Shown here one piece after another: positions 4,330 through 47,683 of a stretch of DNA of 64,000 nt. This DNA comes from Holophagaceae bacterium (lineage in GTDB: Bacteria; Acidobacteriota; Holophagae; Holophagales; Holophagaceae): contig JANYBM010000064.1 of the NCBI GenBank assembly GCA_025361125.1, positions 1 to 64,000 on the forward strand, given 5' to 3'. Numbering within the stretch: position 1 is the first letter of the stretch; the number at the start of each line of letters is the position of its first letter. The notes beneath the pieces are model-generated. The model worked only from the letters and a program-made list of their open reading frames with translations, was not told the origin of the DNA and ran no database searches. Position numbers and translations under genes: made by a program.

Positions 4330-5640
4330 TTACCTTAAACGAGTAGTACTTTGCTTCAATTCGTTGGCTAGGGCCTTAGCCTGCGATGCGTCCAGCTTTG
4401 CTAGCCTGACCAGAGCATCCTGCATCCCGGACTCGTCTCGAGCCTTAGCGCAGGCACGGATCAGGTCCGCCCACCAATCGGTCCGAAAGGGAGATAGGCC
4501 AAGAGCCGTTCGGTAGTATCGGACTGCCACTGCAAACTGGTGCAGATTCATCTGCGCCTCGCCCAAGTGCTCCCAACCTTCCGCATTGTCTGGCACGAGA
4601 TCCAGCCCCCGGGTTAGGGCTTCGGTGGCTTCCTCTGCTCGTCGGGTTTCCAGCAACAGGGCACCCAGATTAAGCCAGGCAATTCCATATCGAGGACTTA
4701 GGGCCAGGGCTCGACGATACGCCGCTTCAGATTCTTGGAAGCGATTGACCAACTGCAAGCTGGCACCCAGATTGTTCCAGACTTTGGGTGAATCTTTACG
4801 CAGGGCCAGGGAACGGTCGTAAGCCTCAATGCGTTCCTGGATTCGCTCCGGTTCAAGGGCTGGCTCCAGAGAATTGGCATAGGCGAACCATGCATCAGGA
4901 TCTCCCGGGGCACTTTTTAACCAAGCTCGGGTGAAGGCATCCCAGGCCGGTTGGTTGGCTGGGTTGGAGGCGAGGGTGTCAATAAAACCTGGCATTTGAA
5001 AGTCAGTCGCGAGGAATTCATCTGCTGATTTGGCACTGGGGTCGTCGATCAAATCGAGGATCCATCGCGCTGGCACCGAGAAATGGATGGCCGAGCTATT
5101 CGTGAAGATGAAGGTGGTCAGGCCCAGCAAGTGGCCAGACTCGTCGAAAAGCCCACCACCACTGGACCCGGGGGCTGTAATGGTGTTGCTTTGCAATACT
5201 TCGGATCCGAGGTAAGCCCAAAGGCCAGTGATCTTCCCTGCCGAAGGTTGCGGCCCTTGCCCGGCTGGGAACCCAATGGCAATAACGGTCTGACCGACAG
5301 TGGGTGTGGTCGCCACTATCGGCACCACTGGCAACGACAATCCCGGTACGACCAGCACACTCAAATCTCGGCGCAGGTCATCCTTCCGGGATAAAACCTG
5401 CCAGATCTGCGAGCCTGAGGAAACGCTCACACTGAGGGCTCCCGAAGTCACGTGGGCGTTGGTGGCCACCAGACCAGGACCAACCACCACGCCACTTCCT
5501 TGACGGATGGATCCCTGGCCCTGATTGGCCAGCACCTTCACAACGCTCAGGGTCGGGGGATGAGGTTCCTGGGCAACCGAAAGCGCACCCCAAAAGCAGA
5601 AGAGGGCAACAATTCGTTTGCTGCTAAACCATTGCTTCAT
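4330..5640 (-). CDS. Trypsin-like serine protease domain plus TPR repeats, secreted
   Basis: Signal peptide; TNAHV, DLSVL and APGSSGGGLFD triad motifs; C-terminal TPR-like repeats. Confidence 0.85.
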   Translation of the reverse strand: MKQWFSSKRIVALFCFWGALSVAQEPHPPTLSVVKVLANQGQGSIRQGSGVVVGPGLVATNAHVTSGALSVSVSSGSQIWQVLSRKDDLRRDLSVLVVPGLSLPVVPIVATTPTVGQTVIAIGFPAGQGPQPSAGKITGLWAYLGSEVLQSNTITAPGSSGGGLFDESGHLLGLTTFIFTNSSAIHFSVPARWILDLIDDPSAKSADEFLATDFQMPGFIDTLASNPANQPAWDAFTRAWLKSAPGDPDAWFAYANSLEPALEPERIQERIEAYDRSLALRKDSPKVWNNLGASLQLVNRFQESEAAYRRALALSPRYGIAWLNLGALLLETRRAEEATEALTRGLDLVPDNAEGWEHLGEAQMNLHQFAVAVRYYRTALGLSPFRTDWWADLIRACAKARDESGMQDALVRLAKLDASQAKALANELKQSTTRLR

Positions 5641-5732
5641 AATAGTTTGGACCCTGAAGACAAAAGTTGGAGAGGGGGCTGCAACGCACCCTCAACCCGC
5701 AGTTCAGACCACCCATCGCGGGGTCCTACATT

Positions 5733-5870
5733 CGACATAAAGGCTCCAGCACTGGCGAACATAGTGGGCGGGAAGACTCCGCATCCACAAGCATAGCCAG
5801 TGGGAGCGCAGACTGCCCCAGATAGCTGGAGATGCAGTAGCGCCCTGGTCAGAAATGCGCTGGCCTGTAT
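5733..5870 (+). repeat. Dispersed intergenic structured repeat, copy B (long form, degenerate 3' end)
   Basis: TCGACATAAAGGCTCCAGCACTGGCGAACATAGTGGGCGGGAAGACTCCGCATCC...GATAGCTGGAGATGCAGTAGCGCCCTGGTCAGAAATGCGCTGGCC. Confidence 0.7.
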
Positions 5871-6003
5871 TCGATATGAGGCCTGCCTACGCCCTCCGGC
5901 CAACTCCGGAGCAGCACCCATCGCGTCGGCCTATGATCGGTATCGGGGGCCACAAGGGCTTCGATCTAGCTCAGAGCATAACCAATCGCTTCGGCCGTTT
6001 TGG

Positions 6004-6123
6004 CCGACATAGAGGCTCCAACTCCGCAAACGAAGTAAGCGGGAGGGTGCACTGCCCCCGATAGTTGAAGGGGCCGTTACGCCTTGGCCAGAAAAGCGGT
6101 GGCCAAGACGCAACAGCCCCTAA
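6004..6123 (+). repeat. Dispersed intergenic structured repeat, copy C (short form)
   Basis: CCGACATAGAGGCTCCAACTCCGCAAACGAAGTAAGCGGGAGGGTGCACTGCCCCCGATAGTTGAAGGGGCCGTTACGCCTTGGCCagaaaagcggtGGCCAAGACGCAACAGCCCCTAA. Confidence 0.85.
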
Positions 6124-7391
6124 TCTTCACCCTGAACGCCAAGTACGGCTTCACGCAGGTTATTGGGCAAGGGTGTGGCGGTCTGGACGGTGTTCAGAGG
6201 GGCACCTGGCGTGTTGAGGGCGTTGGCCGCTGCGGGAGTCGTGGGTCTGGGTGCTGGTTTGGGGGCTGTGTCTTGGCCCATCGCCTTCATTTGCTCAGCG
6301 GTCGCGAAAACTTCGAGCCGCTCCAGTTGCTCGGCGGTGGGAAATCCATCAAAGCGACTGCGGCGCGGACCCCAAAGGGGAATGGTTTTACCCCGGAGCT
6401 CTTGGATGCGCGGCAGACTTGGGCGGAAATAGATGCCAAGCGATTCGCCATCGGCCCTCACGAATGCAATGAGATCCACTTCGGGCAGGGCAATGGGATT
6501 GCCCTCATTCCAAGTGGCGTAGGTCAAAGTACGGCCCTGGCTATTGCGCAGTGTGCCTAAAGGCATAGGCCACGCCATGCCATCCATGGCAGGATCCAGA
6601 GCGCGATCTTGAGCCCGTAGCGCTTGCAACAGGTCCAACTGGCGTAGTTCTCGTTGGGGTTGGGCGATGGGGTGGGGGTCCTGCATATTGGCCGGCACCA
6701 GCTTTTTTTCCACCTGGGTCATGATCGTCGCCAGCAATACTTGATCGGTAGTGCCGATGACCTTCGTGGCGGCTTCCAGGAGTTTCGGCAAAAGCACCTG
6801 CGGTGCCACCAGCAGTGTGTCCGCGGTCGGAATAGCCAGGAAGTGATTCTGGCCAGGGAAAAGGTGGTCCCATAATTCCGGCAACAGCAACAGGGCCGAA
6901 GACCCCACAAAGGGGTCATGAAACGTGCTTTGGTAGATGCCACTGGGCAAACGTTCGAAACTCGCCTCTTTCGCCTTCTCGTGAAGGTTGTACAAGGCCT
7001 GGTCCACCACTTCTTCCAGGCTCGTTTCAAACAACACCGCCCAGGCTTTGGTGAGCCTGTGTTCACCAATGCGTACCCGAAGCGTCAGCCCTTCGCAGAA
7101 TGGGCGATGAAAAACGCCATCGCGCTCCCCAACCCAATGCGGAACCAATTCGGGCAACACTTCGTACTGGGCGAACTTCCAGGGTTCCGGTAAAGCGATG
7201 CCAGCCTGGTGCAAGTCGGCCACTGCGTCCAGGTACGTCACGCGCTCCAGGGTGCTGAAGTGAACGAAATCTTTGGTGAGTTCGTCCAACCCAGGCAGAT
7301 CTGGAGGCAGCGACCGCTCCGACAGCAGGGCGCCCAGCTCCGGGCGGGGGACTTCGTCAGTGTGTTTAAAGAACCTGGAAAACAAGGCCAT
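6120..7391 (-). CDS. DUF1444-like (YtpQ-like) protein
   Basis: 412+ aa ORF with layout resembling the DUF1444 family; family assignment from recall only. Confidence 0.55.
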   Translation of the reverse strand: MALFSRFFKHTDEVPRPELGALLSERSLPPDLPGLDELTKDFVHFSTLERVTYLDAVADLHQAGIALPEPWKFAQYEVLPELVPHWVGERDGVFHRPFCEGLTLRVRIGEHRLTKAWAVLFETSLEEVVDQALYNLHEKAKEASFERLPSGIYQSTFHDPFVGSSALLLLPELWDHLFPGQNHFLAIPTADTLLVAPQVLLPKLLEAATKVIGTTDQVLLATIMTQVEKKLVPANMQDPHPIAQPQRELRQLDLLQALRAQDRALDPAMDGMAWPMPLGTLRNSQGRTLTYATWNEGNPIALPEVDLIAFVRADGESLGIYFRPSLPRIQELRGKTIPLWGPRRSRFDGFPTAEQLERLEVFATAEQMKAMGQDTAPKPAPRPTTPAAANALNTPGAPLNTVQTATPLPNNLREAVLGVQGED

Positions 7392-7461
7392 GGCAGCATC
7401 TCATCCGAATCTTCCATGTTTGCGCGAAAAGGGGCTGCTGTCAGCGTCTATTCTGGAAGCT

Positions 7462-8469
7462 ATGAAGCTGTTGGATACCTTTTCCCGCCCCTTGGGGGCC
7501 TTGCGCATCTCGGTGACGGACCGCTGCAACTTCCGCTGTCCCTATTGCATGCCCCGGGAAGTCTTTGGCGCGGATTATCCGTTCATGGACCGGTTGGATA
7601 TCCTCAGATTCGAGGAAATCGAAAGGTTGGTTGGCCTTTTTGTGGGCTTGGGCGTGCGCAAGGTGAGGCTCACGGGTGGGGAACCCTTGTTGAGAAAAAG
7701 CCTCCCGGATCTCGTGGCGCGTATCGTACGAATTCCGGGCGTTGATGATCTGGCCCTCACGACGAATGGGGTGCTCTTGCCGGAATTTGCTCAGGCTTTG
7801 AAGGATGCAGGGCTTAAACGATTGACCGTGAGCCTCGACACATTGAATGCCGACAGATTCAGAAAACTAAGCGATTCGGAAATTCCGCTTACGCGTGTGC
7901 TCTCAGGTCTTGCAGCCGCTCGCAGCGCAGGATTCGCCCCCATCAAGCTCAATTGCGTGCTGCAACGCGGCATCAATGAGGATGAAATCCTGAATCTTGC
8001 AACCTTCGCGCGGGAGGGCGGGCACATCCTGCGTTTCATCGAATTCATGGATGTGGGCACCCAGAACGGCTGGAAACTGGATGCGGTCGTGCCCATAGAC
8101 GAAGTCCTGGCCAAAATAACAGCTTTAGGGGAGATCGAGCCCATCGAAGATTCCAAGACCGGGCGCGTGGCGGAACGCTGGCGCTATCGCGATGGCTCGG
8201 GAGAATTCGGTGTCATCGCCTCGGTCACGAAAGCATTTTGCGGAGGCTGCGACCGGGCGCGCCTCAGCGCCGAAGGAGCCCTCTATACCTGCCTGTTCGC
8301 CGGGTCTGGCGTCAACCTGAAAACAGCGCTCAGAAATGGGTCCAGCGACTCCGACCTTCGTGCCCTCATTGTGAGCTCATGGAAGCGGCGCGATGACCAC
8401 TATTCCGAGCTGCGCAGCTCCAACACCCCACCCACGCGGAAAGTGGAAATGTTTCACATTGGTGGATAG
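7462..8469 (+). CDS. moaA: GTP 3',8-cyclase MoaA
   Basis: MKLLDTFSRPLGALRISVTDRCNFRCPYCMP radical SAM motif; C-terminal FCGGCDRARLSAEGALYTCLF. Confidence 0.96.
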   Translation: MKLLDTFSRPLGALRISVTDRCNFRCPYCMPREVFGADYPFMDRLDILRFEEIERLVGLFVGLGVRKVRLTGGEPLLRKSLPDLVARIVRIPGVDDLALTTNGVLLPEFAQALKDAGLKRLTVSLDTLNADRFRKLSDSEIPLTRVLSGLAAARSAGFAPIKLNCVLQRGINEDEILNLATFAREGGHILRFIEFMDVGTQNGWKLDAVVPIDEVLAKITALGEIEPIEDSKTGRVAERWRYRDGSGEFGVIASVTKAFCGGCDRARLSAEGALYTCLFAGSGVNLKTALRNGSSDSDLRALIVSSWKRRDDHYSELRSSNTPPTRKVEMFHIGG

Positions 8470-9552: not shown

Positions 9553-12087
9553 ATGCGCCTGCCCTGGTTTTCAAAATCTCCGCCTGTCATGCGGGAACAC
9601 CCCTTCCTCACGGCATTGGGGATACTCTTCTTTGGTCTTGGCCTATCCGTCACCATCAGCGTGATAGGCCAGCGACATGCCAGTGAACGCATCCAGGCTC
9701 GCGTGGACCGTCAGGTGCAGCGGACCTATCTTTCCATGCAGGAGCACCTGTTCACCTATGAGGGTCTACTGCGAGGAGGGCGTGGGCTCTTCGAAGTGCG
9801 CACGAAAATTGCGGAGGATGATTGGCGCCGTTTCGTGGAGGAATTGGACCTTCCACACCGGTATCCGTCGGTCAAGGGGCTCGCCTATATCGAACCCGTT
9901 CCCGGCGATAAAGGTGAACGATTCCTGATCCGATATTCGGAACCAGTGCTGCTGAATCCCAATGCCGTCGGCTATGACATCGGGCTTGATCCGGAACAGC
10001 GTGGGGCGGCGATTCGTGCCATGGAATCAGGTCAGAGCGCGATTACTGCGCCGATTTACTTCAAAGACTCTGGGCGGGAACGCCCCGCATTTGGCCTGCT
10101 CTTGCCAGTCTACATGCCGGGCACCATGGCCTTCACACCTGCAGCCCGAAGAGCGGCGCACCTGGGTTGGATTTCTGCGGCGATTTATCTGGACACCATG
10201 ATGGACGAGGTCATGCGGGAGATGGACCCGGATTTCGGGACCCAGATCTTCGGTGGCAACCATCCGGTGCATGGCAATCTGGCTTATCAGCACAATACGG
10301 GGGCGCTGAAAGGCCACCGCAGCATCACGCCACCCCGTCAATTGGATTTCAAATGGGGCGACCGGGCCTGGGTCGGGCGGGTAACGCCCTTGCCCAGTTT
10401 TGATCAGACCGCGGATTATCGCTGGCCTACCTGGGCGCTTATCACAGGCTCCGTCATCTCCCTTCTGTTGGCAGGTTTGACCTGGTCCCTGATCTCCACT
10501 CGGGCAAGGGCCGTGGCAATGTCAAAAAGCATGACCCGCGCCCTGGAAGAAGCCCTCCGTCGCCATGAAAGCCATGTGGAAAACACCCCCCTGGCAGTGA
10601 TGGAATGGGACCCGGAAGGCAAGGTGCGTACCTGGAATCCAGCAGCTAGCCGCATTTTTGGCTACACCGAAGCAGAAGCCCTGGGCCGCGGCGTCGTTGA
10701 ACTGCTTGCGCTGACGGAAGGGCCTGGCAGCCTGGCGACAACACTGGAAAACATTGCATGGTCAAAGGCTGGAACCCACAGCTCCTTGGAATGCCGCGCG
10801 AAAAATGGCCACACAATCATTTGTGGCTGGTACAGCGCGCCCCTCCTGGGAGAGGACGGAGAATTCCTGGGGGCAACCACGCTCATCGAAGATCTCACCT
10901 CCGCAAGACAGCGGGAGGAAGCGCTTCGCCAGGGCCAGAAGCTTGAGAGTCTGGGCCTTCTGGCCGGCGGCATAGCCCACGACTTCAACAACATCCTGAC
11001 GGCGCTTTTGGGGAATCTGGACGCCGCGGTGGAGGCCACCGACGAGCGATCACCGGCCATGGAACATCTCCTCAAAGCCATCACCAGCGCCGAACGGGCC
11101 GGGGATCTTTCCACCCAAATTCTTGTCTACAGTGGCAAAGGTGCCTTCACCACCAAGGAAGTGCTGCTCAACCATGTAGTAGAAGAAATGACGGAATTGC
11201 TGGCGATCTCGCGCCCACCAGGCATCACACTTCGATTGCAGCTCGCGCCGGATCTGCCCTTCATCCAGGCCGACCCCATACAAATGCAACAGGTGGTGAT
11301 GAACTTGATCCTCAATGCCACGGAGGCATTCGAAGGTTCAAGAATAATTGGCACTCCAGAATGCATCATTACCCTCACGACCTCTCATCGCGTGTATTCC
11401 GACGTTGAATTGGAAACGGCCTTTGCGGGTCAGGACCTGCTTCCTGGTCCCTACGTTTCGCTGCGAGTGAAAGACAGCGGGTGTGGCATGGAGGAAGCAA
11501 CCCTCATTCGAATTTTTGATCCATTCTTCACCACCAAAGCCACCGGTAGAGGCCTCGGGCTAGCAACCTTGCAGGGTATTCTGAAGGCCCATCATGGTGG
11601 CCTCTGGGTGAACAGCAAGCCTGAAGCTGGGACGACCTTCAACCTGCTCTTCCCCGCCGCCGAGGCCATGCCTGCACTATCCAGGAAGAATGCCAGCGGT
11701 GGTTATGAAAGTGAAGGCACCGTTCTGTTGGCGGACGATGAAGAAGCCATCCTGACCATCACCGCCTTGGCCCTGTCAAAGGCCGGCTTTGAAGTACTTA
11801 CCGCAGCTAATGGCCTGGATGCTTTGAAACAATTTGCCTCCAACTCGGAAATCATCCGGTGTGCGTTGATTGACGAAGTCATGCCTGGCATGAGCGGCGC
11901 CGAATTGATGCAAGCCATGCGGGCCATGAAGCCAGAGCTTCGCGTCGTTCTATGCAGTGGCTATAGCGAGTCCGGTATTGTGAATGCTGCTCCGAATAAT
12001 TCAATCGCAGCCGCTGATGCTTTCCTGCAAAAGCCCTACCGCACAGCAGATATGGTGGATCTGATCCGGAAGGTGATAGGGAGTTGA
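9553..12087 (+). CDS. Hybrid sensor histidine kinase (CHASE - PAS - HisKA - HATPase_c - receiver)
   Basis: N-terminal TM; CHASE-like periplasmic region; [22 protein letters not shown]-box; [17 protein letters not shown]; receiver [10 protein letters not shown]...[12 protein letters not shown]. Confidence 0.93.
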
Positions 12088-23857: not shown

Positions 23858-23872
23858 CCACTTTGGCTTGCC

Positions 23873-24108
23873 AATCGGGTGCATCCCTGAAACTCTGAAT
23901 TCCGACAACGTGTGCTGGATGCACGGGAAGCCGGTTAGATTCCGGCGCTGCCCCGCAACGGTATGCACCCCACGGAAGAACAAGTTCCGTGGGAGGCCCG
24001 GCCCGGAAGCGATCTTCTGGAGACCGGCAGGAGCCACTGGCGCGACGCGCTGGGAAGACTCCAGGGAGGTCATCCGACCCCTGCCGCGTGCGAGCCCGGA
24101 GACCGATT
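23873..24108 (+). promoter_or_regulatory. Cobalamin (B12) riboswitch
   Basis: GGGAAGCCGGTTAGATTCCGGCGCTGCCCCGCAACGGTA core, GAGCCACTGGC...TGGGAAGAC, GAGCCCGGAGACCG; P1 AATCGG/CCGATT closure; upstream of btuB-like gene. Confidence 0.93.
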
Positions 24109-24198
24109 CGGTACCAAGACCACCGCCGAGGGAGCGGAGGGATCACGCCTTTTGGCGTAGCCCTCCCTTTCCTCCGCGATTCATGCGTGGAGGCGTGA

Positions 24199-42776: not shown

Positions 42777-43388
42777 TTAGAAGATCGTTGCCAGACCGCG
42801 ATCCCCTGCGTCCAGCAGCATTTCGCGAACGGCCTGCTGAGGACTGAGGCCACGGCTGGCTTCCAATTCCTTTTGGCGGTTCAGGCTTTCGTAGAAACGT
42901 GCGATGTGATCCTTGCGCATGGTGAGGGATTCCTTCTCGATCTTCTCCTGCAGCTTCATCAGGCCATACAACATGCTCTCAGGCCGGGGGGGGCAGCCGG
43001 GTACATAGACATCCACGGGCACCACCCGGTCAATGCCCTGGAGCGTGGCGTAGGTGCGGTACATGCCACCGCTGGAAGCGCAGACCCCCACACTGATGAC
43101 CCACTTGGGTTCGGCCATCTGGGCGTAGATGGTGCGGAGCACCGGCGCCAGCTTGTTCGTGACAGTGCCCAGCACCAGCATCATGTCGCTCTGGCGCGGG
43201 CTGAAGCGCATGGCCTCGGCGCCGAAGCGGGACATGTCATATTTCGAAGCCATAACGCTCATGAACTCGATGGCGCAGCAGGCGGTGCCAAAAGGCATGG
43301 GCCAGAGACTGTTTTTTCGGGCCCAGTTCACCACAGTGTCGAGTCGGGTGGTGAGCACCGCCTCGTTGAGATTCAACTCTGCCGCCAT
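42777..43388 (-). CDS. nuoB: NADH-quinone oxidoreductase subunit B
   Basis: [56 protein letters not shown]. Confidence 0.97.
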
Positions 43389-43768
43389 CAGCGCTCCCAC
43401 TCAAACGCACCCTTGCCCCAGGCGTAAATGAAACCCACCAGCAGGGTGGCGAAGAAAGTCAGCATGGGGACAAAGGTTTCCAGATGGGTTTTATATTGCG
43501 CAGCCCAAGGCAGCATAAAGGCGACTTCCACATCGAACAGGATGAAGAGCATGGCCGTAAGGTAGAACTTCACTGAATACCGATGCCGGGCGCCAACCTG
43601 CAGGGGCGGTGCCCCACATTCAAACGGCGCCAGCTTGTTGGCGTCGGGATTGTTGGGTTTGAAGCGCGGCAGGATGACGCCGGATAGCACCAGCACGATG
43701 GCAGCGACGACGATAGCCACCAACAGGAGGATCAGGACGCCAAGAAAGGGAGTAAGGGGGCTTTGCAT
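43388..43768 (-). CDS. nuoA: NADH-quinone oxidoreductase subunit A
   Basis: [42 protein letters not shown]. Confidence 0.96.
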
Positions 43769-43835
43769 AGTGGATTCCCAGAACCTTCATCCTAAGTCGT
43801 TGGGCCAAAATAAACTAGTCGGCTCGATAACAGTC

Positions 43836-44010
43836 CGGCCCAGAGGCTCCAGCTCCGCGAACGCAGCCAGCATGGAGGCTCCGCGTCCAAAAGCGCAGCG
43901 AGTGGGAGCACGCACTGCGTGCGATAGGTGGGGGGCGCACTGCGTCCGATAGCTGGAGGGGCCGTAGCAAATAACCTGAACTGTACGGGTTACTTTGGCA
44001 CGGCCCCTAA
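43836..44010 (+). repeat. Dispersed intergenic structured repeat, copy E (long form)
   Basis: CAGAGGCTCCAGCTCCGCGAACGCAG...GCACGCACTGCGTGCGATAGGTGGGGGGCGCACTGCGTCCGATAGCTGGAGGGGCCGTAGCAAATAACC...GGGTTACTTTGGCACGGCCCCTAA. Confidence 0.85.
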
Positions 44011-44070
44011 CCGCGCCTCTGGCGGTGACCCAAGGCACTTTCACGTTAGAATCATTCAAACGAGGGCTGC

Positions 44071-44328
44071 ATGAGCGATTTGAAGACCGAACTGAAAACC
44101 ATGATCATCGAGCGTCTCAAACTGGAGGGCATGACGCCGGACCAGATTGATGACAAGGCTCCGCTGTTTGGCGAAGGGCTGGGTCTGGATTCTATTGACG
44201 CGCTGGAATTGGTGCTGGGTATCGAGCAGCACTTCGGCGTGAAGATCGAAGACGAAGCCGCAGGGCTGCAAGCCTTCAAGAACGTGGAATCCCTAACTGC
44301 CTTCATCGCCGAGCATCGGACTGCATGA
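44071..44328 (+). CDS. Acyl carrier protein
   Basis: GEGLGLDSIDALELVLGIEQHFGVKIEDE phosphopantetheine Ser. Confidence 0.92.
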   Translation: MSDLKTELKTMIIERLKLEGMTPDQIDDKAPLFGEGLGLDSIDALELVLGIEQHFGVKIEDEAAGLQAFKNVESLTAFIAEHRTA

Positions 44329-44386
44329 GCCGACCTGTCGTCGCCTCCATCGCCATCGTCGCTGTCAACGCTGGGACTTGAAGCCA

Positions 44387-44821
44387 ATGAATGGGGAAGC
44401 CATCACGGCCCAAATACCGCATCGCTATCCTTTTCTATTGGTGGATCGGTTGCTGGAGCGGGAGCCAGGCGTTCGGGTGGTGGCGGAAAAACTGCTCACG
44501 ATCAACGAGCCATACTTTCAAGGTCATTTTGCCGAGCGGCCACTCCTGCCTGGCGTATTGATGTTGGAGATGCTGGCCCAGGCCGGTGGCTTTCTGGAAT
44601 CTGAACCGCTCCTGGGCAAGCCCATTTTTCTCGCCCAGGTACTTGACGCCCGTTTCAAGGGCGCCGCCTTCCCAGGCGACAAGCTTCGATTGGAAGTGAG
44701 CCCCGACGCGAGTTTTGGCGGCTTGATGCGCATCAAGGGAATCGTCAGTTGCGACGGACGGGTGCTTTGCACGGCCAAGTTGCTGCTGAAGAACAGCGTG
44801 GGTCCAAAGGGCTCCGCATGA
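44387..44821 (+). CDS. FabZ-like 3-hydroxyacyl-ACP dehydratase
   Basis: IPHRYPFLLVDRLLE, PYFQGHFAERPLLPGVLMLEMLAQAGG. Confidence 0.9.
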   Translation: MNGEAITAQIPHRYPFLLVDRLLEREPGVRVVAEKLLTINEPYFQGHFAERPLLPGVLMLEMLAQAGGFLESEPLLGKPIFLAQVLDARFKGAAFPGDKLRLEVSPDASFGGLMRIKGIVSCDGRVLCTAKLLLKNSVGPKGSA

Positions 44822-46017
44822 CCCGGCGCGTGGTCATCACGGGGGTTGGATTTGTTTCGAGTCTTGCCTTGGACGCCCCCTCCACTTGGGCGCGCATGCT
44901 GGAGGGCGACTGTGCCATCGGGCCCCTTACCCAATTGAAGATGCCGGGGGAACCCGCGCAGATGGCAGCAGAGGTCCATCTGGCAGAGGGCGAACTGATC
45001 AACCGGAGAGCCACCCTGGGTGAGCACATCGCCCTCATGGCGCTGCGGGAAGCCCTGCGAACGACGCCGGGGCCAAAAGGGTTGGACCCCCGTCGCATGG
45101 GGGCGTTCCAGGGTGCCGGGACGTCCGGCTTGCCTTCAGCCGAGGCCTACGCCCAGGGCCGCATGGCTGGGCGAAAACCCGGCGCGACGGATGCGATCTA
45201 TCAAAGCCCAACGACGGTCACGGATGCGCTCGGCAGGGAATTGGGCGCCACCGGTCCCCGCAGTACCGTCATGACGGCTTGTTCATCATCCCTGTTGGCC
45301 CTCGGGCAGGCTTGGGAGCGCATCGCGTTTGGCGAATTGGATCTCGCCGTGGCGGGTGGCGCCGAAACCTTGTGCATGACCACCTACGCCGGATTTGCCA
45401 GCCTCAAGGCCATGGATCCAGGCCTTTGCCGCCCCTTCAGCAGGGACCGCGCAGGGTTGAATTTGGGCGAGGGCTCCGCACAATTCATCCTGGAACCTTT
45501 GGAACAGGCCCTGGCGCGCGGCGCGGAAATAGTTGCCGAATTGCGAGGCTATGGAGCCAGCCTGGACGCGCATCATTCCACGGCACCCCACCCTGAAGGT
45601 GATGGCGCGGCGAGGGCCATTCGCATGGCCATGAATTGCGCGGGCTTCAATCCCGATGATGTTGATTTCGTCAGCGCCCACGGAACCGCCACGCCGGCCA
45701 ATGACAGCTCTGAGACGATCGCCATCAAGTCCGCCCTGGGTGAAGCCGCGGCGCGGGTCTCCGTGACCTCCACCAAATCCCAGTTCGGCCATACGTTAGG
45801 CGCCTCAGGCGCCGTGGGCACCTTCGCCGCGGTGATGTCGTTAAAAACCGGCATCGTGAGCCCCACCTTGCGGTTGGATGACCCGGACCCCGCCTGTGAT
45901 CTGGATTACACCCCACTCCAGGCCAGGCAACGCAGCGTGCGCGCGGCCCTAGTGAATGCCTTCGCCTTCGGGGGCAACAATGCCTGCGTGGCCCTTCGGC
46001 GCTGGGAGGGACGATGA
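44818..46017 (+). CDS. Beta-ketoacyl-ACP synthase (KS, intact Cys-His-His)
   Basis: VMTACSSSLLALGQAW, VSAHGTATPAND, KSQFGHTLGASGAVG. Confidence 0.92.
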   Translation: MTRRVVITGVGFVSSLALDAPSTWARMLEGDCAIGPLTQLKMPGEPAQMAAEVHLAEGELINRRATLGEHIALMALREALRTTPGPKGLDPRRMGAFQGAGTSGLPSAEAYAQGRMAGRKPGATDAIYQSPTTVTDALGRELGATGPRSTVMTACSSSLLALGQAWERIAFGELDLAVAGGAETLCMTTYAGFASLKAMDPGLCRPFSRDRAGLNLGEGSAQFILEPLEQALARGAEIVAELRGYGASLDAHHSTAPHPEGDGAARAIRMAMNCAGFNPDDVDFVSAHGTATPANDSSETIAIKSALGEAAARVSVTSTKSQFGHTLGASGAVGTFAAVMSLKTGIVSPTLRLDDPDPACDLDYTPLQARQRSVRAALVNAFAFGGNNACVALRRWEGR

Positions 46018-47111
46018 GTCTTCCAACCAGCGATAAAACTATTGTCATCACTGGCATGGGCCTGGTGCTGCCCTGCGGCGATGGGATTGAAGCCGCCCGC
46101 CAATCCTGGAGTTCAGGGGAGCCCTGCTTTGCCGACTTGCCGCCCAACCTTGGCAAGGGGCGCGCGGCCTATTGCTCTGCCTTTAATCCCTCAGGCATCA
46201 TCCCCCCAATGCAACTGCGGCGATTGGACAGGCCCTCCCGATTTGCCTGGAGCGCGGCCCACCAGGCCTTGGTGGATGGTCGGATGAATTGGAAAGGTGA
46301 CCCGTTAGGAGAACGGGTGGCCATGACAGTGGGTACGGTCACCGGCGGCAGCGAAGCCGGGGAAGTTTTCATGCTGCCCTACTTTGAGCGGGGCCCCGAA
46401 GGCGCATCACCCATGGTGTTTCCCAATTGTGTGGCCAATGCAGCCTCGGGTCATGTGGCCCTGGCCTTTGGCATCAAGGGACCAAGCATCACCCAGGTGG
46501 CACGGGAGAATGCGACTTTCATGGGTCTGGATCAGGCCGTGCGCTGGTTGCGGCGGGAAGTGGCGGAAGCCGTGCTGGTCATCGGAACCGATGGGATCTT
46601 TCCCCTTCAGATGGAGTTGCTGCGGCACGCCGGGCGCTTGACGATCCAGGGCGACCCCAGGGCGAATGCCGCCACAGGCTATCTTCCAGGCGAAGGAGCG
46701 CAAGCCTTTTTACTCGAAACCCGCGACCATGCTGAGTCCCGCGGCGCCAAGATTCGCGCCGAGGTGGTGTCGGTCGCTTGTGTCTCACCCGACCAGGAAA
46801 ATTTTGAGGCCCGCGCGAGAGCTCTCTCCCTAGCTGTTGCAGAAGCGTTGAGGGACTTGGTTCCATCGGCATGGATCGGCGGCAGCAATGGTTCCCGGCG
46901 ATTGGACGAACTGGAAACGGCGCTTCAGAAGCTTCATCCCCACTGGCCTGGGCCCAGGTTCCCCAAACTCAGCTGGGGGGAATTCTGCGGCTCAGGTGGC
47001 CAAATGATGGCCGCAGCCATGTTGGAAGATCTGGATGGCCCGATACTCATTTCGGGGCCCGGCTCCCTAGGACCCCAGTGCGCGGCAGTGATCCGGCGGG
47101 TTAGGATCTAG
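46014..47111 (+). CDS. Degenerate beta-ketoacyl synthase (KS-beta/chain-length-factor-like)
   Basis: KS fold (TIVITGMGLVLPCGDGI...) but Cys region reads SITQVARENATFMGL and both His motifs are replaced. Confidence 0.8.
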   Translation: MSLPTSDKTIVITGMGLVLPCGDGIEAARQSWSSGEPCFADLPPNLGKGRAAYCSAFNPSGIIPPMQLRRLDRPSRFAWSAAHQALVDGRMNWKGDPLGERVAMTVGTVTGGSEAGEVFMLPYFERGPEGASPMVFPNCVANAASGHVALAFGIKGPSITQVARENATFMGLDQAVRWLRREVAEAVLVIGTDGIFPLQMELLRHAGRLTIQGDPRANAATGYLPGEGAQAFLLETRDHAESRGAKIRAEVVSVACVSPDQENFEARARALSLAVAEALRDLVPSAWIGGSNGSRRLDELETALQKLHPHWPGPRFPKLSWGEFCGSGGQMMAAAMLEDLDGPILISGPGSLGPQCAAVIRRVRI

Positions 47112-47113
47112 CG

Positions 47114-47683
47114 ATGGGCTTCCGCGATCCCCACGCCATCCTGCTCAACCGCTCCAGCATCCTTGTGGTGACCAGCGTGGGAGTTGCCTTGCTCACCTTG
47201 AGCTACGTGCTGGGCGTCCAGGTAGGTAAGCAAAGCGCGGCTTTGCAGCGACCTACTTCCAAAGGCAGCGGTGAAGATCTGAAAGCATTGCCGGCGCCGA
47301 TCCTGGACCAACTCCATTCCTTTGATGGCGACCCAGAAAACATGACAGCAAAATTGGATCCTAAAAAAGACGAGAAGACAGCTCCCAAATCGGAACCACA
47401 ACCAGAGGCGAAGCCGGAAACAAAATCCAAGCAAACCGCTTCGACTCCAGTGGTGGCGCCTTCTGGCAGATGGACTTTGCAACTGCTTTCAACCCCGGAC
47501 AAGGCGGAAGCGGATCGGACAGCTAGCAAGGCCAAGACTGCGGGGTACCTTGCCCAAGTCGTGAAAGAAAATGGCATCTACAAAGTGCGCTGGAATCACG
47601 CGGGGGCCAAACCCGAAGTGGATGCCACGGCTACCAAAATGAAGGCAGCGGGTTTCAAGCCCTTTGCTGTGCCTGCGGAGTAA
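47114..47683 (+). CDS. SPOR-domain-like membrane-anchored protein
   Basis: N-terminal TM, charged linker, GRWTLQLLSTPDKAEADRTASKAKTAGYLAQVVKENGIYKVRWNHA. Confidence 0.75.
   Translation: MGFRDPHAILLNRSSILVVTSVGVALLTLSYVLGVQVGKQSAALQRPTSKGSGEDLKALPAPILDQLHSFDGDPENMTAKLDPKKDEKTAPKSEPQPEAKPETKSKQTASTPVVAPSGRWTLQLLSTPDKAEADRTASKAKTAGYLAQVVKENGIYKVRWNHAGAKPEVDATATKMKAAGFKPFAVPAE

Follow-up and report, generated by a model that had tools for sequence, protein, structure and literature searches.

A four-gene ketosynthase-chain-length factor cassette beside the nuo operon of Holophagaceae and an unlinked LpxL-like acyltransferase of nearly matching distribution

Where a ketosynthase (KS) is paired with a chain-length factor (CLF), a secondary-metabolite cluster is normally suspected. 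Among the known kinds of system are type II systems built on KS-CLF, polyene systems and pairs of acyl carrier protein (ACP) and KS that divert fatty acid synthesis (FAS). In NodF-NodE of Rhizobium, an example of the last kind, the housekeeping FAS is diverted to an unusual polyunsaturated acyl chain for one acceptor, the Nod factor. Among polyene systems, ApeO-ApeC alone produced the full-length polyene in vitro, and KS-CLF systems of this type need a ketoreductase (KR) and a dehydratase (DH) to complete each round (PMC8358021). The published minimal Amc clusters, of the cispentacin/coronafacic acid type, include a loading acyltransferase, AmcH (PMC10698177), and, at the level of the phylum, Acidobacteria appear in one catalogue (PMC10132072) as a source of KS-CLF pairs. 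In the open literature, of which coverage was incomplete, no published description of the four-gene cassette reported here was found, and nothing usable was found on Geothrix pigments, fatty acids or type II polyketide synthases (PKS) in Holophagaceae.

The cassette lies in a window of 64,000 nucleotides (the whole stretch of DNA analyzed) from a metagenome-assembled genome of Holophagaceae (G000; Acidobacteriota, relatives of Geothrix) of 3.13 Mb and 91.6% completeness. A first, sequence-only reading had described four tightly packed genes for an ACP, a FabZ-like DH, a KS and a degenerate KS, and all four open reading frames were recovered (Table 1), with ATGA overlaps at both the DH/KS and the KS/degenerate KS junctions. 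The DH probably starts at the ATG at 44387 instead of the TTG at 44378, because the DHs of relatives begin there. Motifs and profile matches were in agreement on the intact active sites attributed to the first three proteins. The ACP matched PF00550 at 44 bits and lay above the cutoff of NCBIfam NF006617, its phosphopantetheine motif being invariant among relatives (75-95% identity). The DH scored 128.7 bits against the FabZ equivalog NF000582 (cutoff, 113), and it also matched PF07977 and carried PGVLMLEMLAQ. In the KS, the catalytic Cys-His-His and the Lys (KSQFGHT) were intact, with motifs invariant or nearly so among 18 sequences.

Table 1. Coordinates of the cassette genes, their borders and the second LpxL-like gene
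Feature	Position	Strand	Remarks
nuoA	43388..43768	-	Divergent from cassette; left border
Intergenic region nuoA/ACP gene	43769..44070		Divergent; from gene layout only
ACP gene	44071..44328	+	85 aa; LDSIDAL phosphopantetheine site (GLDSIDAL)
FabZ-type hot-dog DH gene	44387..44821	+	GHF His and LEMLAQ Glu both intact
KS (KS-alpha) gene	44818..46017	+	PF00109 and PF02801; TACSSS, AHGTAT, FGHTLG
Degenerate KS (CLF-like KS-beta) gene	46014..47111	+	PF00109, 74 bits; QVARENA, GGSNGS, WGEFCG
SPOR-domain gene	47114..47683	+	PF05036; right border of cassette
Second LpxL-like acyltransferase gene	G000 contig 3: 6925-7872		315 aa; HX4E motif AHAGNYE

Judging from the gene layout, the promoter of the cassette must lie in the divergent intergenic region next to nuoA. 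The SPOR gene begins 2 bases past the stop codon of the degenerate KS gene and is probably cotranscribed with the cassette; by itself its protein is no pathway member, since cassette-negative genomes have the gene too. The first reading had also found no KR, acyltransferase or tailoring gene adjacent to the cassette, and the same held in the relatives examined. Thus, neither a KR, an acyltransferase nor an enoyl reductase was present in the cassette, and no SDR lay between nuoA and the SPOR gene, in the G000 locus or in those relatives; the cassette also contained no starter-loading ligase, exporter or thioesterase. G000 encodes three strong KS-family proteins in all, the only one outside the cassette being the housekeeping KS on contig 179, beside an ACP. 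One further FabA-domain protein is encoded on contig 18, and the maximum for any family genome was two. When G000 was compared with three congeners, dN/dS was 0.15-0.21 for the degenerate KS, 0.10-0.11 for both the KS and the DH and 0.02-0.07 for the ACP, within the range of the neighboring PrmA and SPOR genes. All four cassette genes are therefore under purifying selection (0.02-0.21).

The degenerate KS had been said to have lost all three catalytic residues; these were found to be replaced (Cys by Glu165, His by Gly291 and the second His by Glu323), and the replacements are conserved. Arg164-Glu165, Gly290, the retained Lys318 and Trp321-Gly322-Glu323 were invariant in an alignment of 22 sequences, with Glu165 at the position of the KS Cys and Glu323 at that of the second His. 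The structural model (pLDDT of 84) had a thiolase/KS fold. Foldseek searches of the PDB with the models of both ketosynthases placed FabF/FabB at the top and the ishigamide KS further down, a ranking that does not discriminate between KS classes. By its residues, the protein looks like a chain-length factor (KS-beta), and it is referred to below as the CLF.

In a tree of 80 KS and CLF sequences, the CLFs of the family formed one clade with other acidobacterial CLFs and with the CLFs of Streptomyces highly reducing systems (support, 99/88), away from the CLFs of aromatic PKSs. In a KS-only tree that included the family's own FabFs, the cassette KS grouped with KSs having such CLF partners, and forcing it into one clade with FabF cost 72 log-likelihood units (p-AU, 1.6e-50); long branches leave it uncertain exactly where it joins ApeO and the Streptomyces KSs. 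The phylogeny that the first reading had proposed as a check thus placed the KS outside FabF and the CLF among the highly reducing ones. An ordinary FabF/FabB paralogue was ruled out by the tree and the AU test. Of the two circumstances that this reading had named as counting against it, the placement of both ketosynthases in FabF/FabB clades was not seen, while a housekeeping context does surround the locus, in the form of the nuo operon and the SPOR gene. Its comparison of the KS/KS-beta pairing with type II PKS or aryl polyene systems was borne out by the residue signature, the CLF clade, the AU test and the gene clusters of relatives. An aromatic type II PKS was rejected, as the CLF and the KS fell elsewhere in the tree and no cyclase or aromatase gene lay nearby.

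In the broad sense of a KS-CLF type II system, the locus has an intact KS beside a nucleophile-less homologue, with an ACP in the operon. With highly reducing type II PKSs (ishigamide Iga11-Iga12 type; NZ_CP108007, NZ_CP108982) it has in common the KS, the degenerate CLF, the ACP and a DH of its own, as well as the phylogenetic placement of KS and CLF, whereas a KR in the cluster, FabD, further KSs and loading or tailoring genes are absent from it. In the CLFs of both, Glu replaces the second His (PKxxxGE); however, the Cys position is occupied by Glu in the cassette and by His in Streptomyces, and the KSs are just 39-40% identical. Aryl polyene (APE)/flexirubin systems (ApeO-ApeC, DH, KR, ACPs, LpxL-like acyltransferase, LolA and MMPL) also share KS-CLF, ACP and DH with the cassette, and the likeness extends to a recurrent link of KS-CLF pairs to LpxL-like acyltransferases and to acidobacterial relatives in APE-like clusters (L086). 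In contrast to them, the cassette has no second KS (ApeR), KR, starter ligase, LolA, MMPL exporter or glycosyltransferase, and its acyltransferase is unlinked. NodF-NodE is likewise a dedicated ACP and KS, but with neither a CLF nor a DH of its own, and NodE formed a separate clade. NodE-type KSs were among the best matches of the cassette KS; since it is only ∼40% identical to them and to the Streptomyces KSs, its substrate is not readable from the sequence. Overall, the cassette is neither a full aryl polyene cluster, several defining genes of which it lacks, nor an aromatic PKS, and it would work like a highly reducing KS-CLF core.

Outside the family, members of several acidobacterial families encode KS-CLF pairs with a like signature (QREA/SGASG/PKxxxGEYGG), and most of these pairs have an ACP next to them. 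One of these loci (L086) combines KS-CLF and ACP with an AMP-ligase, MMPL, an LpxL-like acyltransferase, a FabA-like protein, methyltransferases and a FAD halogenase-like protein, and its gene content has the hallmarks of an aryl polyene-type cluster. In two others, the pair is accompanied by ACP, KR, LolA-like and PHP proteins (L094) or by a FabA-like protein, ACP, PHP and AMP-ligase (L101). Of the CLF relatives encoded on plasmids, the best annotated belong to Streptomyces clusters containing fabD, an ACP, a KR, two DHs and a KS fused to a CLF. These plasmid clusters contain an additional KS-like gene with TAD at the Cys position (L083:9390-10679 and L084:7381-8667), which is the second inactive KS of its cluster.

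Within the family, the degenerate KS was detected at high score in 52 of the 77 genomes searched, and the order ACP-DH-KS-CLF was identical in every positive locus examined gene by gene. Among the positive genomes examined, the cassette precisely occupies the gap between the divergent nuoABCD genes, whose order and adjacency are kept in cassette-positive and cassette-negative genomes, and the SPOR gene, which adjoins it in nearly all relatives and is also present at the empty site. Eight negative genomes had a clean empty site (G051, G052, G060, G061, G065, G066, G069 and G070), with nuoA and the SPOR gene ∼80-170 bases apart and nothing between them; the SPOR gene was absent at the site in two more distant negatives (G001 and G073). 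The cassette is thus a syntenic unit, present or absent as a whole, and it is far beyond chance, because it recurs in 52 of 77 genomes in one gene order with dN/dS of 0.02-0.21. Its presence required five changes on the NuoABCD tree, at least four of them forced by well-supported branches, and both deep branches had it at the same site. Repeated insertion into a single site with a constant gene order would be improbable; we therefore infer that the common ancestor of most of the family already had the cassette, which was later lost whole on several occasions. In one positive genome (G053, locus L051), a TonB-dependent-receptor-like gene (4468-7584) lies between nuoA and the ACP gene, and a gene for 389 aa without a Pfam match (10582-11751) lies between the CLF and SPOR genes.

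The catalytic His loop (GHF) of the cassette DH was missing in four genomes (G007, locus L154; G024, L155; G014, L157; and G036, L046). The loss came about through differing in-frame deletions or substitutions, with at least three events on the ACP+KS+CLF tree. The rest of the DH reading frame was intact in these copies, as were the KS, CLF and ACP motifs, and in the clade adjoining G007 (G004, G013 and G050) GHF was changed to xHP. DH dN/dS was 0.21-0.42 in pairs with a His-less copy, versus 0.07-0.17 in other pairs. Because the His is gone while the motifs of the other three proteins are intact, DH activity in these lineages must, to judge from the sequences, be either dispensable or supplied by the housekeeping FabZ. 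The KR and the malonyltransferase, both lacking in the cassette, must come from the housekeeping FAS. The first reading's suggestion that general FAS enzymes are borrowed was strengthened by the missing KR and by the repeated losses of the DH His. With everything else intact, these losses form a natural experiment in the borrowing of functions by such a system.

Each of the family genomes examined encodes one LpxL-type acyltransferase of its own. A second LpxL-like enzyme (≥59% identity), unlinked to the cassette, was present in almost exactly the cassette-bearing genomes. Of the 50 genomes with a completeness of ≥90%, 37 had both and 11 had neither, with the cassette only in one (G035) and the acyltransferase only in one (G037); the corresponding counts for all 77 genomes were 50, 19, 2 and 6. 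On the Nuo tree, four of four independent contrasts were concordant, a number with which the sign-test p cannot go below 0.125, while the Fisher p of 4e-9 ignores kinship. Of the families checked for co-variation (FabA-domain, desaturase, condensation, LpxL and MMPL), LpxL was the sole one that tracked the cassette, besides its own DH. LpxL-like genes also lay within ∼10 kb of six nonfamily acidobacterial KS-CLF loci (L086, L088, L089, L090, L094 and L101) and inside an enterobacterial aryl polyene cluster (L104). With the co-varying acyltransferase, what would be an unknown polyketide becomes a lipid hypothesis that can be tested. An MMPL exporter was ruled out as a partner, MMPL being nearly universal in the family genomes and without co-variation with the cassette. 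A nonribosomal peptide synthetase (NRPS), for which the polyene would be the starter of a lipopeptide, had come into view through the carrier domains that long open reading frames of G000 encode; it is no general partner, as condensation domains occurred in just 2 of 50 genomes.

On balance, we lean toward the view that the cassette is a minimal highly reducing KS-CLF type II system that probably makes a polyenoyl chain on its ACP, from which the LpxL-like enzyme would move it to an envelope lipid. In this mechanism, the putative KS-CLF heterodimer would elongate an acyl starter carried by the dedicated ACP, using malonyl units from the housekeeping FabD; reduction would be carried out by the housekeeping FabG, and dehydration by the cassette DH, or by the housekeeping FabZ where the DH His is gone. 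Enoyl reduction would be omitted in at least some rounds, and for this reason the most likely product would be a conjugated polyenoyl-ACP, with its length set by the KS-CLF pocket. The unlinked LpxL-family acyltransferase would then transfer the chain to a glycolipid or other envelope lipid. Acyl-ACP is the donor of LpxL enzymes; the pathway would thus be complete without ligase or thioesterase, and this direct use of acyl-ACP would explain why the cassette has neither of them nor an exporter. More tentatively, we propose a two-locus pathway ancestral to the family, in which the cassette, borrowing KR, AT and sometimes DH, may act with the distant LpxL-like enzyme to give a polyene- or otherwise specially acylated envelope lipid.

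Several points count against this mechanism: the cassette lacks a KR, a starter-loading ligase and an exporter of its own, MMPL transporters do not follow it, and its DH is catalytically defective in some members. The polyene step is the weakest part, and a chain of fixed length without conjugation is a serious rival. In that case the KS-CLF would measure the length of a dedicated saturated or hydroxylated chain, the FAS would perform all reductions, including the enoyl reduction, and the LpxL-like enzyme would use the product for secondary acylation of lipid A or another lipid. The lack of a polyene-specific tailoring gene in the cassette, the dispensability of the DH active site in several lineages and the association with an LpxL-family enzyme all fit this reading, which we nevertheless regard as unlikely: the same KS-CLF signature has aryl polyene-like neighbors elsewhere, FAS elongation requires no CLF, and the simplest reason for a dedicated ACP would be to shield the chain from FabI.

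It is decidedly unlikely that the cassette is an anaerobic unsaturated-fatty-acid branch, analogous to the FabN/FabO type of pair (a dehydratase/isomerase and an elongation KS) and supplying ordinary membrane monounsaturates. The adjacency of a DH and a KS, additional to the housekeeping FabZ and FabF, would suit such a branch, as would the absence of any further FabA-domain protein beyond the two per genome. However, a CLF and a dedicated ACP would be superfluous to it, the cassette was repeatedly lost, and the DH catalytic His is gone in several genomes. The reading is further weakened by a fatty acid desaturase, which most genomes encode whether or not they have the cassette, G000 included.

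A cyclizing KS system like that of cispentacin or coronafacic acid, in which the DH-like protein and the degenerate KS would form a small ring, is very improbable. The four protein types are identical to those of AmcB-E-F-G (ACP, hot-dog protein, KS and degenerate KS), and weak matches to all of them were obtained; yet every Amc cutoff was failed by a wide margin (AmcF, 203.5 versus 325; AmcG, 15.8 versus 80; AmcE, 49.8 versus 140; AmcB, weak and also below its cutoff), the DH passes the FabZ equivalog, AmcH is missing, and the CLF is of full length with a conserved signature of its own. The notion of an ordinary FabF duplication in decay, devoid of special function, has the housekeeping flanks (nuo and SPOR) in its favor but is scarcely credible against the AU test, KS and CLF dN/dS of 0.10-0.21 and replacement residues that are invariant across the family.

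Under the preferred reading of a minimal polyene-forming KS-CLF system, what most members of an environmental bacterial family have retained is a KS-CLF system cut to four genes beside the complex I operon, its remaining functions apparently drawn from primary metabolism. Cluster finders that rely on neighboring tailoring genes would be expected to miss such cassettes easily.

Several other biosynthetic genes were observed in these genomes, and elsewhere in the window a cobalamin riboswitch (Rfam RF00174, 53.5 bits) was recognized at 23860-24125 on the + strand. NRPS genes of G000, with condensation domains on C44 and C54 and carrier domains on C63 and C170, are absent in its congeners and in almost the entire family. 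In a member of another acidobacterial family (G186), the aryl polyene-type locus mentioned above (L086:460-13444) encodes a tryptophan-halogenase-like FAD protein and two methyltransferases, and a halogenated or methylated polyene is a possible product. Finally, two cassette-negative Holophagaceae genomes (G060 and G061) carry another operon, with the order acyltransferase-ACP-KS-CLF (L180:1188-4725 and L179:3177-6585). A StlD/DarB-type ketosynthase gene (L180:10467-11615) and B12 radical SAM genes lie near the L180 operon, which suggests that these operons may lead to a dialkylresorcinol/flexirubin-like product in Holophagaceae.
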